From Nitrospirota bacterium (GTDB taxonomy: Bacteria; Nitrospirota; Nitrospiria; SBBL01; JAADHI01): a stretch of DNA of 64,000 bases. A program made the position numbers and the translations under genes. Location of the stretch: assembly GCA_029261155.1 (NCBI GenBank), contig JAJDBW010000047.1:62001-126000 (forward strand), read 5' to 3'. Below are positions 17,833-30,674 of the stretch, piece by piece. The stretch's first letter is position 1. Every line of letters begins with the position of its first letter. Below the pieces are notes generated by a model. The model ran no database searches. It was not told the origin of the DNA and saw only the letters and a list, made by a program, of their open reading frames with translations.

Positions 17833-19476
17833 ATGGCGGAGCGACCCCTGGTAGCGCTGACCCTGGCCTTTGTCACCGGTCTCCTCCTTGGCGAGGTCTT
17901 TTCCTACTTTCCGCAGGTCTTGATCGGTTTTACGCTTGTACTTCTATTTTTTGAAGCTTGCGACCCCCGCCGGGTGCACCTTCCTTTTCCTAGTCTTCTC
18001 CTTGGCGCCCTCGGCTTCCTCTTTATTCAACTGACAACGCAACCTTTCTATTCCGGTGATTTAAGGTATTACCGCGATGGAGGACCAATCCGGATTCTTG
18101 CCCGCGTTGCGGAGCCCCCACAGTTTTATCCCAAGCAAACGGTGCTCCAAATGGAAGGGATTGAAATCCATAAAGCGGGTCGCCGCAGTCGCGTCCAGGG
18201 CAATTTTCAACTGAAGGTATGGGGCGTGCCGGTGCCGCACCGCTATGGAGACCTGCTTGACCTCGTAATCCGCTTGCGGTCTCCAAGCCAATATCAAAAC
18301 TTTGGATCCTTCCAAATTTCGGATTTTAGGCAACGCACCGGATTAAGCGGTGTGGCCCATCTTTCAGATCTGCGCCAAGTCAGTCGGGTGGGTGAAAGTG
18401 GAAACCCGCTTCTAAAACAAGTATTTCAATGGCGGGAGGAAATAATGGACCAGCTTGCAACAAGCCTGAGGCCAGAGACCGCTGCGCTGATTTCGGCCTT
18501 CGTCCTTGGAGAGCCGGGCGCGCTATCGGAAGAAGTTCGGGAAACTTTTTCAGCCGCGGGCGTTGCACATCTTTTAGCGGTCTCAGGTGCCCATCTTGCC
18601 TTTGTTTCCCTCTTTATATTTGGCCTGAGTCGATGGCTGATCCTCCGCCTTCCCATAGGCATATTACTCCGACTCTCGCTTTGGAAGATTCCCTCGCAAT
18701 GGGCCGCCTTAATTGCCGGCGGTGTGGCCATTTTTTACACCCTTCTGGCCGGTGCACATCTGGGAACCCTCCGGGCCTTGACCATGATTTTGGTCTATTT
18801 ATTCTCGATCTGGATTGGTCGGCGCCGGGACGCCAAAATTAGCCTTAGCATCGCCGCGCTTCTGATTCTCCTATTTCAAGCGCGGGCGATTTTCGAGATT
18901 TCCTTCCAACTTTCATTTATCGCCGTCCTTTCAATGGTGCTCGTCATGGAGGCATGGCAAGAAACCAGTGGTCCAGACCTTGAATTAAAGGAGTCGTCTT
19001 TTAAAAAAGGACTAATTGGACGGATGCGTCTTCTCTTTCTATCGACCTTGGCCGCCACCTTGGGTACGGCCCCCTTAACCCTCTTTTATTTTCATCAGTT
19101 TAGCTGGAGCGGCCTCCTTGCCAATTTTATTCTCCTACCACTTGCGGGATGGATCATGGTGCCCTTCGGTCTTTTGTCCGTGATTGCTGCTCTCGTTTTT
19201 AAAGCGGCGCCCTTCTTCTTGCGATGGCAAGAAGGCCTCTGGTCTTTTTTTTACATGCCTATATACAATTTTCAGCCTCTTCCTTTTTTCACACACTATA
19301 TTGTGTTCAAGCATAGTCACAATTCAAGCATATTGCGCTTGGCTGTGAATACTATAGAGGCAAGTTTTTTTATAAGGTGGTTGCTTTTTTTGCAGATTTT
19401 CCTGGCGCTGATTTTCATTTTGCCTCGCCGCCGCTCATCGTTCTCCTTTCCTATTACGCGGCATTTTTTTTCTTAA
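17833..19476 (+). CDS. comEC: ComEC/Rec2 DNA uptake channel, N-terminal and membrane part (gene interrupted)
   Basis: Residues 1-60 hold two helices, followed by the periplasmic OB-like DUF4131 domain (about 65-190). The multi-helix Competence domain comes next, with the diagnostic AAGVAHLLAVSGAHLAF near residue 245. ComEC forms the inner-membrane channel for transforming single-stranded DNA. Normal ComEC continues into a metallo-beta-lactamase domain, but here that domain is in another frame at 19377-20465. After LWSFF the reading frame enters a 122-bp AT-rich insertion and then misreads the true downstream sequence. Joining tct-ttt to tat-aag restores a continuous, family-like ComEC. The gene is probably inactive or produces two polypeptides. 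Confidence 0.85.
   Translation: MAERPLVALTLAFVTGLLLGEVFSYFPQVLIGFTLVLLFFEACDPRRVHLPFPSLLLGALGFLFIQLTTQPFYSGDLRYYRDGGPIRILARVAEPPQFYPKQTVLQMEGIEIHKAGRRSRVQGNFQLKVWGVPVPHRYGDLLDLVIRLRSPSQYQNFGSFQISDFRQRTGLSGVAHLSDLRQVSRVGESGNPLLKQVFQWREEIMDQLATSLRPETAALISAFVLGEPGALSEEVRETFSAAGVAHLLAVSGAHLAFVSLFIFGLSRWLILRLPIGILLRLSLWKIPSQWAALIAGGVAIFYTLLAGAHLGTLRALTMILVYLFSIWIGRRRDAKISLSIAALLILLFQARAIFEISFQLSFIAVLSMVLVMEAWQETSGPDLELKESSFKKGLIGRMRLLFLSTLAATLGTAPLTLFYFHQFSWSGLLANFILLPLAGWIMVPFGLLSVIAALVFKAAPFFLRWQEGLWSFFYMPIYNFQPLPFFTHYIVFKHSHNSSILRLAVNTIEASFFIRWLLFLQIFLALIFILPRRRSSFSFPITRHFFS
19249..19370. mobile_element. MITE-like 122-bp insertion in comEC
   Basis: Segments 19253-19277 and 19341-19365 are imperfect terminal inverted repeats, matching at 19 of 25 positions without gaps (each begins AC-x-TGCCT when read inward). 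T-runs flank both ends, consistent with insertion in a T-tract, so the exact borders are ambiguous. The interior is AT-rich and codes for nothing convincing. Removing 19249-19370 restores the comEC frame (122 is not a multiple of 3). The size and structure fit a non-autonomous element. No second copy was noticed in the window. Confidence 0.5.
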
Positions 19477-20465
19477 TCTTATGGCGAAAGCCCATAAAAT
19501 CCGTGTTTGTCGTTATGGGCAGTTTCTTTATTTTCTTTTTCGTCTGGGGTGGCGTCCGCATTCCTCCTGAGGGTCTCCGCGTCACTTTTTTAGATGTGGG
19601 TCAGGGCGATGCGACCCTCATTGAATTTTCAAATGGGAAAACCGTGTTGGTGGATGGTGGGAGCAAGGGGGCGGGGAAATTTGCAGTTGCGCCCTACCTT
19701 TGGGAGCGGCGAATCAGAAGGATCGACTACCTCATTAGTTCGCATCCGCAAGCGGACCATATTGGGGGATTGCCTTATTTGATTCGCCGATTTCAGGTGA
19801 AGGCGTTATGGAGTTCGGGTCTAAACCACAAGAGCGCGGCCTGGCAAGCCGTATTGCGTGAATTAGGCGCGAACAAAAGTCGGCATCATATCGTGTCGAG
19901 CGAGACGCCCGCTTTAGAAATTGATGGATGTTCTTTGAAGGTTCTCCATCCCCGAGGAAGCTTTGGTTTGGAAATCGAAAATAAAAATAACCAGTCGCTT
20001 GTGCTGCGTCTGTCTTGCCCTCGCCTTGGCGGGGAGGGGATCTCCTTTCTTTTAACCGGGGATATCGAAGCGGAAGCGGAGGCCGCGCTCATGGAAGCCG
20101 CCGATCGATTGCCGAGTACGATTTTGAAGGTGGCCCATCACGGAAGTAGGAGCTCGACGGGGAAGCGCTTCGTTGCTGCAGTTTCTCCTGAGGTTGCGGC
20201 GATTTCCGCTGGAAGGCATAATCGCTACGGCCACCCGCACCCCGAAGTGCTTGAGGCTTTAGCTGCCCCCGGCACACGGATCTATCGGACAGACCACTCA
20301 GGCGCCATTGTCCTTGAGGCACGGAAGTCCAATTCCGGAAATATCGAATCCAAGCACTTGTGGTCTTATCGTGATCGAAAGGTCGAGAAGATTCAATGGA
20401 ATCGTAACGTATCTGCCCAAGAATGGCGGAATATCGGAAATGTATTAGCCTTTTTCTCCAGATAA
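19377..20465 (+). CDS. comEC: ComEC/Rec2 C-terminal part with metallo-beta-lactamase domain (separated by frameshift)
   Basis: This frame continues the ComEC protein interrupted upstream. It begins with the family segment FFADFPGADFHFASPP, then a last helix pair (LIVLLSYYAAFFFLIL and VFVVMGSFFIFFF). The MBL-fold domain starts at GLRVTFLDVGQGDATLIE and has the metal motif SSHPQADHIGGL, LLTGDIE and VAHHGSRSSTG. In intact ComEC this domain is thought to act as the nuclease or DNA-handling part. A GTG at 19377 could start a separate protein, but its ribosome site is poor. Because the upstream half is in a different frame, a functional full-length channel is unlikely. Confidence 0.85.
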   Translation: MVAFFADFPGADFHFASPPLIVLLSYYAAFFFLILWRKPIKSVFVVMGSFFIFFFVWGGVRIPPEGLRVTFLDVGQGDATLIEFSNGKTVLVDGGSKGAGKFAVAPYLWERRIRRIDYLISSHPQADHIGGLPYLIRRFQVKALWSSGLNHKSAAWQAVLRELGANKSRHHIVSSETPALEIDGCSLKVLHPRGSFGLEIENKNNQSLVLRLSCPRLGGEGISFLLTGDIEAEAEAALMEAADRLPSTILKVAHHGSRSSTGKRFVAAVSPEVAAISAGRHNRYGHPHPEVLEALAAPGTRIYRTDHSGAIVLEARKSNSGNIESKHLWSYRDRKVEKIQWNRNVSAQEWRNIGNVLAFFSR

Positions 20466-27685: not shown

Positions 27686-30037
27686 CTAGATTCTCATCGC
27701 TCTCGTTTTTGAGGCGACTTGAAGATTGAGCGACCGTGATGCCTTTCTCAGCAGGCTTAATAAAACGATGCCGATGAGGCTGAGCATGGCGGCCGAATCT
27801 CCTGGACCAGGTGGATTACCTGCGTCGGGCCGAATCATGCCGCAGCCGCCGGAGATCGGGCCTTCGTCCGTCGTGGTTATTGTTGCTGAGGCACCTTTGG
27901 GGGTGGCAGTGGCGAAGACCGTGGTCTGGAAATTTCCACTACCGTCGTAAGCGGTCGCCAGGTAGAAGTAGGTGACGCCATTGTTGAGACCCGAATGCGT
28001 CAAACTCATTTCCTGGGCGGGTGCACCGCTAATGTCACCTAAGAGCGCGCCGTCATTGATATCCGACGGAAGACGGTCGGTTCGGTAGCGGATACGTACG
28101 CCGACAAAATCCGAATCAAGTGGGTTCGCCCAAGTGAGTTGCACCTGCGCGTTTTCCGCAGTCGCAGTGAAATTAACGATGTCCATCGGTGGTGTTGTGT
28201 CGCCCTCCACAGTGGTTTCGAAGCTTCCATCACCCGATGAGGAAAGATTACCATCCGTATCGATGCTCAAAACGCGGTAATGATATTGCGTTCCCGGAAG
28301 CAGTCCGCTTAGGATCTGCGAGTGACTAAAGAGCAAGGTCGCATTCTGTACAGTGCTCTGCCCATAGGCCGTCGTTGTCCCGTATTCCACCTGAGCGGTT
28401 GCGGCTTCATCGGTGGTCCAGTGAACGGTGGCTTGTGTCTGAACAATGTTGTCGATGGTAATGCCCGAAATGAGCGGCGCCGTGGTGTCTGTGGCGCTTG
28501 CCGTCGTGAAGGTTCTGTCGGCCCCGGTGGTGGTGTTCCCTGCCGCATCGCTGCTGATGACGGCATAATGGTAGGTCGTCGAGGCGCTCAGCCCGCTTAA
28601 GGCTCGGCTGTGGCTTGTTACATGGACGGTATTCACGCTTGAGAGGCTGCCGTAGGCGGATGTGCTGCCATAGGCGACCTGTGAAGTTGCCGCTTCATTC
28701 GTGTTCCAGCTCACCGTTGCGGTACTCGCGGCGATATTGACCACGTTGGTGCCGCTAATGACCGGTCCAACAGTGTCGGCGAGATTAGTCGTCGTGAAGG
28801 TGTTGTCTCCCGAGCTCGCAGTATTCCCCGCGGCATCTTGGCTGATGACACGATAATGGTAAGTCGTCGCATCGCTAAGCCCACTGAGGGTGCGGCTGTG
28901 GCTCGTGACCAGATTGTTATCGGTTGAAGTCGATGCGCCGTAGGATGTACTCGTGCCGTACTCTACCCTTGCGCTTGCACCTTCATCCGTGGTCCAGGTG
29001 ATCGTCGCGCCCAGTTCGGAGATGTTGCTGGCCGTGATTCCACTGAGTACAGGAGGACTGGTGTCACCGGTGTTCAGCGTGGTGAAGGTATTGTCTCCTG
29101 AGACAGCCAGGTTACCCGCTGCATCCCGACTCAGTACGCGATAGTGATATGTCGTCGCCGGGTTTAGGCCGCTAAGGATTTGCGCATGCGAGCTGACCAT
29201 TGAGGCATTTAAGCTTGTTAGGGTGCCATACGCGTTCGTCGTCCCGTATTCCACCTGGGTGTCCGAGGCTTCGTCGGTTGTCCAGCCGATGGCGCCGCTT
29301 GTCGTTGTGATGTTGTTGCTGGCGATCGCGGAAAGGGAAGGCGGTGTCGTATCTGCGGCGGATGTCGTCGTAAAAGTATTATCGCCCGAGGTGCCGAGAT
29401 TTCCGGCGGCATCTCTGCTGAGTACACGATAGTGATAAGTGGTTGCTGAATTCAGGTTACTTAATCCTTGGTTGTGGGACGTTACGAATGCGGTGTTGAG
29501 TGTGCTGAGCGAACCGTAGGATGTCGTTGTGCCGAATTCAATTTGGGTATCGGCTGCCTCGTCCGTCGTCCAAGAGATCGAAGCGCTTGCGCTGGTCATA
29601 CTTCCCGCATTAATGCTTGAAATAATGGGGGCTGTGGTGTCGGACGTGGAGATGGCTTTGCTGACTTCGTTTGAAAATCCACTTTCGTTTCCAGAGGTGT
29701 CGATGGCTGTTATGGCAAAAAAATAGGTGCCGTCCGAAAGACCCGTCAAGGTATGGCTCGTTGTATTGCCAACGGAAACGGGGGTGCCGTAATTTCCGGA
29801 TGCGGTTCCCATATAGACTTTGTAGCTGGATAGATCCGGTTCGGTGTTGGCGTTCCAGGAAAGATTTGCCGTGCCACTGTAGGCCAAAGTCGTTGAGATG
29901 AGAAGAAAAAGTGTAGGTAGGCCGACTCTCAGGAGGAGGCTTGCGTTAGAAAAGTATTTAAAATAACCCAATGCGTAGGAAGAGAAGCGCATCACCTTGC
30001 CGAGAAGCCCAGGCGCTTTTAATAATAATTGGCTCAT
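27686..30037 (-). CDS. Surface protein with fibronectin type III repeats and Cys-containing C-terminal sorting-like tail
   Basis: The 783-residue protein has a long N-terminal region and a hydrophobic signal (about 34-52), an FN3 domain (55-130), five repeats and a final FN3 domain (613-715). The repeats start at D133, D229, D325, D421 and D517, exactly 96 residues apart. Each has a WTTDE or similar motif, an EYGTT-like strand and TTYHYRVLSRDAAGN. The C-terminus reads GGCGMIRP, then a Pro/Gly linker, a membrane helix (AAMLSLIGIVLLSLL) and a basic RKASR. That tripartite layout, with Cys before the helix, resembles protein-sorting tails. It is probably displayed on the cell surface. Confidence 0.88.
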   Translation of the reverse strand: MSQLLLKAPGLLGKVMRFSSYALGYFKYFSNASLLLRVGLPTLFLLISTTLAYSGTANLSWNANTEPDLSSYKVYMGTASGNYGTPVSVGNTTSHTLTGLSDGTYFFAITAIDTSGNESGFSNEVSKAISTSDTTAPIISSINAGSMTSASASISWTTDEAADTQIEFGTTTSYGSLSTLNTAFVTSHNQGLSNLNSATTYHYRVLSRDAAGNLGTSGDNTFTTTSAADTTPPSLSAIASNNITTTSGAIGWTTDEASDTQVEYGTTNAYGTLTSLNASMVSSHAQILSGLNPATTYHYRVLSRDAAGNLAVSGDNTFTTLNTGDTSPPVLSGITASNISELGATITWTTDEGASARVEYGTSTSYGASTSTDNNLVTSHSRTLSGLSDATTYHYRVISQDAAGNTASSGDNTFTTTNLADTVGPVISGTNVVNIAASTATVSWNTNEAATSQVAYGSTSAYGSLSSVNTVHVTSHSRALSGLSASTTYHYAVISSDAAGNTTTGADRTFTTASATDTTAPLISGITIDNIVQTQATVHWTTDEAATAQVEYGTTTAYGQSTVQNATLLFSHSQILSGLLPGTQYHYRVLSIDTDGNLSSSGDGSFETTVEGDTTPPMDIVNFTATAENAQVQLTWANPLDSDFVGVRIRYRTDRLPSDINDGALLGDISGAPAQEMSLTHSGLNNGVTYFYLATAYDGSGNFQTTVFATATPKGASATITTTDEGPISGGCGMIRPDAGNPPGPGDSAAMLSLIGIVLLSLLRKASRSLNLQVASKTRAMRI
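28202..29641 (-). repeat. Five tandem 288-bp repeats within the FN3 protein gene
   Basis: Codons for D133 to the residue before D613 form five units of exactly 96 codons, with no insertion or deletion between them. Unit boundaries read DTTAP, DTTPP, DTSPP, DTVGP and DTTAP. Units are diverged in sequence (visibly different codons and residues), so they are not a recent expansion, yet the length is held constant. Confidence 0.85.
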
Positions 30038-30674
30038 TCAGAGACCTCCATCAAAAAATTTGATCTCCTTTGGCGGCTCGGCGGGCATGGAAGCATCGCC
30101 CTATGGGGTGTAGGCTGATTTTACGAAACGAAAACCATATCTCTCCCTCCAGATCAAAGGTTTTTCTATATCTTCTTTAGCCCCGTTACTCTGCGTCTCT
30201 ATTTTTCAATAGATTTGCTCTGAGCAAAGGATTGCTTAATCGCAGGCTCCCATGTTTCAAGTGGGGTGCCAAGTTTCTGAGCAGGGCCAAGAGTAATCAG
30301 CTTATTTCTGTTCTAGGGGCTTGAAATTGAGATATACTATTATTTATATTGAAAAATTATAAGTTTTTGCTCCTGGTGTTTTTCTGTAATATGGTCTCTT
30401 TTTTCCTCAATTATGGAATAGGCTACCGATGTTTTATGGAAGCCATTCCCCAGTTCCGGTCCTCTCTTTCACTCGAAAACCTGTTTTTGAGTAAACCCAT
30501 GTCCGTCCAAATTCTCAAACGAGCAAGGACATGAATCGACAAGGTCTTAAGATAGATGCCCGTGGTGTAGTCAAAAAATTCAATAATTTTAAAGGTTTTT
30601 TACGCCTAAGTCTTCTCGTAAATTGCCTCTCTGGCGTATTGTGGATTTTTAGGGGAGCGTTTATACTTTGGGGG
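30038..30674. other. 637-bp divergent intergenic region
   Basis: The region separates the minus-strand FN3 protein gene from the plus-strand FG-GAP-like lipoprotein gene. It contains TTTGCTC-T-GAGCAAA (30214-30228), a 15-bp near-palindrome suited to a dimeric regulator. AT-rich stretches follow near 30330-30360, including a TATACT hexamer that could be a -10 element. A 61-codon TTG-started hydrophobic frame (30349-30534) and the N-terminal extension of the lipoprotein frame (30531-30674) are not convincing genes. Confidence 0.35.

Follow-up and report, generated by a model that had tools for sequence, protein, structure and literature searches.

The comEC gene analyzed here is broken in two by a 111-bp mobile element, and we consider it very probable that this element is a MITE of the IS1595 family that was mobilized by an IS1595-type transposase, inserted into a T-tract of the gene and truncated ComEC. 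The gene lies in a 64-kb stretch (hereafter the window), which corresponds to bases 62001-126000 of the 216-kb contig C42 in a draft genome of 3.56 Mb and 90 contigs (G000). The GapA protein encoded in the window has its closest match (73%) in a MAG named Nitrospirae bacterium nzgw272, ahead of Nitrospira sp. (68%), a MAG named Deltaproteobacteria (67%), Desulfurobacteriaceae (66%) and Nitrospirae MnB_6 (66%), so the bacterium probably belongs to the Nitrospirota.

The inserted element occupies positions 19254-19364 on the + strand. Its terminal inverted repeats are imperfect, the left one (CATGCCTATATACAATTTTCAGCC, 19254-19277, + strand) matching the right one (CTTGCCTCTATAGTATTCACAGCC on the - strand, 19341-19364) at 18 of 24 positions. 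Perfect 8-bp target duplications, TTTTTTTA, bracket the element at 19246-19253 and 19365-19372; the left copy falls within a T8 run (19245-19252) and the right copy holds a T7 run (19365-19371). The net insertion is 119 bp, made up of the 111-bp element and one 8-bp duplication. A sequence-only reading had proposed a 122-bp insertion at 19249-19370, ending in 25-bp inverted repeats with 19 matches and flanked by T-runs. The insertion and its repeats stand, but the duplications move the borders and shorten the length to 119 bp, the outermost A/T pair of the proposed repeats belongs to the target duplication, and the T-runs, although present, are not a separate feature but TTTTTTTA occurring twice. 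The inverted arms alone are weak evidence, since the repeat finder, at its settings, listed no inverted repeat. When both window strands were scanned for either end at a threshold of at least 17/24, only 2 of 127,952 24-mers matched, the number expected from the element's own two ends. Folding of the 122-base stretch as RNA gave a moderately stable structure (z -2.66, with 3 of 200 shuffles equally good), as expected from the inverted ends, and an Rfam search returned no match in the element. The single Rfam match in the window was a c-di-GMP-I riboswitch (RF01051, 50.6 bits) at 30069-30229 on the - strand, upstream of a 783-aa open reading frame (ORF) on the same strand (27686-30037).

The two halves of ComEC lie in different frames, as had been claimed from the sequence, with ORFs at 17833-19476 (547 aa) and 19377-20465 (362 aa) offset by 2 mod 3. 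This frame shift follows from the net insertion, since 119 bp is itself 2 mod 3. The 5' part of the gene (17833-19253, + strand, including the left target copy) encodes DUF4131 together with the larger part of the Competence domain; the Pfam search of 17833-19248 recovered both, the latter over profile positions 2-221 of 270. The 3' part (19373-20465, + strand), whose listed ORF starts at a GTG at 19377, covers the last portion of the Competence domain region and the metallo-beta-lactamase domain, matched by Pfam as Lactamase_B. When the 119 bp are left out, the flanks join into an 837-aa ComEC that is gapless against its relatives at the junction, with a length difference of one to two residues about 16 residues upstream. 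The junction then reads S-F-F-Y-K; the previously proposed S-F-Y-K had rightly restored the frame but not the residues, the removal of 122 bp instead of 119 giving one residue fewer. The conclusion on the frame survives this border correction because both lengths are 2 mod 3.

Comparison with relatives, which had been suggested as a check, revealed the empty site. The Competence profile (PF03772) matched in 39 of 41 genomes, with one match in G000; among the 38 relatives that matched, comEC forms one open stretch in 37. The alignment took in 30 of these 38, and the insertion point was uninterrupted in all 30. ComEC of the relatives is about 840 aa long and carries DUF4131, Competence and Lactamase_B in one frame, whereas G000 has the same domains spread over two ORFs; the nearest ComEC, from the same genus, is 50% identical to the flank-joined frame. 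The one relative with comEC in two pieces, G017 of the same order (C1:2400383-2401248), may carry a genuine frameshift, or its sequence may be in error, the assembly being 86% complete. A simple frameshift or indel in the comEC of G000 was also considered and is ruled out, since the inserted sequence recurs in the genome and is bordered by target duplications.

The search for further copies, likewise proposed beforehand, provided the strongest support for a mobile origin. A genome search with a 128-base query found six full copies, five of which have identical 111-bp cores, while the sixth carries 1 change in 111. Each of the six is flanked by its own perfect 8-bp duplication, and all six duplications are different (TTTTTTTA, TTGTTTTA, TTGTTTAA, TTCTTAAT, AATTGTAA and TTAAATAT). 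Six full copies, each with a perfect duplication, exclude chance as the origin of the element in comEC and bear out the earlier view of a non-autonomous mobile element in a T-tract. The targets are rich in A/T (44 of 48 bases, versus about 49% A/T in a background of roughly 100 kb of sampled sequence with some overlap within the sample). The element has no transposase coding capacity in six-frame translation, five frames containing stops and the stop-free one amounting to 36 codons within the element. It is thus short, lacks a transposase gene and has terminal inverted repeats, near-identical copies and target duplications, the features of a MITE.

At E <= 1e-4, this MITE was found in no other genome searched. 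Among 40 relatives, nothing beyond short, weak matches turned up (best E 0.05), and a class-wide search of 269 genomes, in which the top three candidates per genome were scored, matched G000 only, with none of the 268 others reaching E <= 1e-4. Its exact left end was absent from genome_contigs and viral_contigs, where records near the window's genome are possibly missing, and blastn against plasmids and phages gave no match. Copies differing by at most 1 in 111, together with the lack of matches at E <= 1e-4 elsewhere in the class, support the earlier suggestion that the insertion is recent.

On sequence grounds, the element is best interpreted as a MITE of the IS1595 family that would be moved by a transposase made elsewhere. 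Hallmarks described for the IS1595 family include 8-bp target duplications and the DDE_Tnp_IS1595 domain (PMC8101967), and duplications of this length are present at 6/6 MITE copies. In a profile search, this domain (PF12762) matched six stretches of G000. Contig C7 encodes an intact 351-aa transposase without any of the ends searched for. Among the other matches, the copy on C42 (at 29 kb) is frameshifted and the one on C72 decayed, and two are fragments close to the ends of contigs. IS1595 transposases usually carry an N-terminal zinc ribbon; both PF12762 and PF12760 were matched in the IS1595 elements that reside alongside the MITE. The genome also contains a high-copy IS1595-family element, known from its ends alone because its middle is absent from the assembly, with 11 left and 13 right ends located almost exclusively at contig breaks. 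Its C-terminal fragment matches PF12762, its targets are also rich in A/T (180 of 192 bases), and 7 of the 11 left ends pair with a right end of identical 8-bp target, the one on C78 fitting two right ends. As a side observation, this element explains much of the fragmentation of the assembly (C42:216194-216332 is an example of a contig end), and the shared 8-bp targets suggest contig joins such as C43-C70, C34-C22 and C28-C2.

The ends of the MITE resemble those of these elements. The best pair is formed by its left end and the left end of the decayed C72 copy (21/24), and its right end matches the high-copy ends at 19/24 (right end) and 18/24. Overall, MITE ends match high-copy ends at 17-19/24, and the other pairings of MITE and IS ends give 15-18/24. 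The earlier idea of looking for a transposase with matching ends was therefore borne out in part: IS1595 elements with similar ends are present, but none with identical ends was found, the similarity stops at the ends, and the C72 copy lacks matching target duplications. A search for a better source element among 28 PF12762 loci from relatives and three from G000 returned, at 17/24 or better, only the two G000 copies already known and one further locus (L225, 17/24), compared with one in a shuffled control. The MITE thus shares with the IS1595-family insertion sequences of G000 similar 24-bp ends (17-21/24 for the best pairs) and 8-bp A/T-rich targets; unlike them, it has only the ends in common and encodes no transposase, so we regard it as a derivative and not as an IS1595 insertion sequence. 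A comparable case is described from the archaeon Haloquadratum walsbyi, whose IS1595-related MITE (165 bp, 7 copies, IR 25, DR 8) is linked to ISHwa6 (PMC3852290). Both are short, non-autonomous, present in few copies, bounded by inverted repeats and 8-bp direct repeats, and accompanied by an IS1595 element in the same genome, but they differ in host and length, and the likeness drawn here is one of description. A second repeat family with IS1595-like ends was also noticed outside the window. This 173-bp repeat (C42:171797-171969; L014:2798-2970) has near-full relatives on C47, C58 and C31, and the copy on C42 lies between perfect 8-bp target repeats (TTTTTTTA on one strand); the palindromes in its middle (CCCCCTTT...AAAGGGGG) also occur alone at many places in the genome (57 matches, E <= 0.01).

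We propose that an IS1595-type transposase, supplied from elsewhere in the cell, recognized the inverted ends of the MITE, which would then have inserted into the comEC T-tract while copying the 8-bp target. The 5' frame of comEC stays open across the element and, shifted by the net insertion, would stop 74 codons past the left target copy, at 19476. The predicted product of 547 codons, of which the last 74 derive from the element or the wrong frame, would lack the end of the Competence domain and the whole metallo-beta-lactamase domain. ComEC is described as the pore for DNA import (PMC4774983). Since both the last part of the Competence domain and the metallo-beta-lactamase domain lie beyond the break, DNA uptake has probably been lost and natural competence broken, as far as can be judged from the sequence. 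Other transformation genes were detected in G000, with a dprA match over the cut-off, five matches to PilQ (two of them over the cut-off) and a ComEA-like match just below it (50.0 versus 53.1 bits).

A functional ComEC could still arise from two separate polypeptides or through frameshifting, in which case uptake would be kept; we judge this to be very unlikely. Both halves are open, but a recent insertion means that open halves need no explanation. Only one of the six frames of the element is stop-free, and comEC enters exactly that frame. Moreover, a promoter-like match lies on the + strand within the element at 19288-19317 (2 such matches in the region versus 0.4 expected), making separate expression of the second half possible. 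As for frameshifting, slipping back by one base within the right-border T7 run would produce a read-through ComEC of 877 aa with about 40 extra residues. These residues would, however, sit in a conserved membrane region of the protein, and a run of seven falls short of the nine bases from which selection against slippage is reported to be evident in many bacteria, although the same source allows that shorter runs may slip in some (PMC1088944). A comEC whose full-length product depends on slippage of RNA polymerase or the ribosome, so that the 877-aa form (about 40 of its residues encoded by the MITE) would be rare and competence low-level or switchable, is in our estimate highly improbable, and we hold it so because comEC contains one more T7 run and one more T8 run, which means that the T7 at the border is nothing special.

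We give an equally small chance to the idea that the MITE has been kept in comEC by intragenomic conflict, blocked transformation shielding mobile elements from removal. Disruption of competence genes by mobile elements is described in several species (PMC4774983, PMC11472951, PMC12955456). Against a role of this kind here, the comEC target is no more than an A/T-rich site, an element of 111 bp without its own transposase would be a poor agent for blocking transformation, and a single genome gives no test of selection. Furthermore, no competence ORF is joined at any of the five other MITE copies, one of which splits a NicO-like gene, so there is no sign that competence genes are targeted. The NicO-like gene, interrupted by the copy at C27:20343-20453 (L011:1444-1554), encodes a NicO/DsbD_2-like transporter. 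It lies about 4 kb from dprA, a proximity that had suggested comM as the gene split on C27, a candidate we rejected on the identity of the gene. At the other four sites, ORFs joined from the flanks do not span the junction. Two of six copies in genes are compatible with a general A/T preference. Least credible of all is an assembly artefact or a strain mixture, with the short repeat mis-stitched into comEC or the insertion carried by some of the population. In its favour, the assembly is a draft of 90 contigs, many of which end at the high-copy IS. Against it, the comEC copy lies deep inside its 216-kb contig, and all six MITE copies are internal to contigs and bear perfect 8-bp duplications that differ from one another, which mis-joining would not create.

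The IS1595-family MITE in comEC can be set beside known disruptions of the same gene. Transposable elements are described as interrupting comEC in Piscirickettsia salmonis (PMC12955456), where, as here, mobile DNA breaks comEC and other transformation genes remain. In contrast to the single recent MITE, open halves and one genome of the present case, that report describes several distinct transposase-bearing elements and, in all sequenced genomes, eroded remains of the gene. In Streptococcus pneumoniae, a mefA cassette is described as inserted in comEC (PMC4774983), again mobile DNA inside the gene, but a large cassette with cargo genes and not a MITE. No published MITE in comEC was found in the open-access literature, subscription journals lying mostly outside the search.

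Disruption of comEC by mobile DNA is described as rare (PMC12955456), and the present locus, probably from a member of the Nitrospirota, offers a clean example: a MITE interrupts the DNA-uptake channel gene, the target is duplicated, and relatives have the empty site. Apart from this, the insertion is ordinary mobile-element biology and a known kind of gene breakage. The 111-bp family adds to the few IS1595-related MITEs described, and if DNA uptake has indeed been lost, this lineage should import less DNA by transformation.
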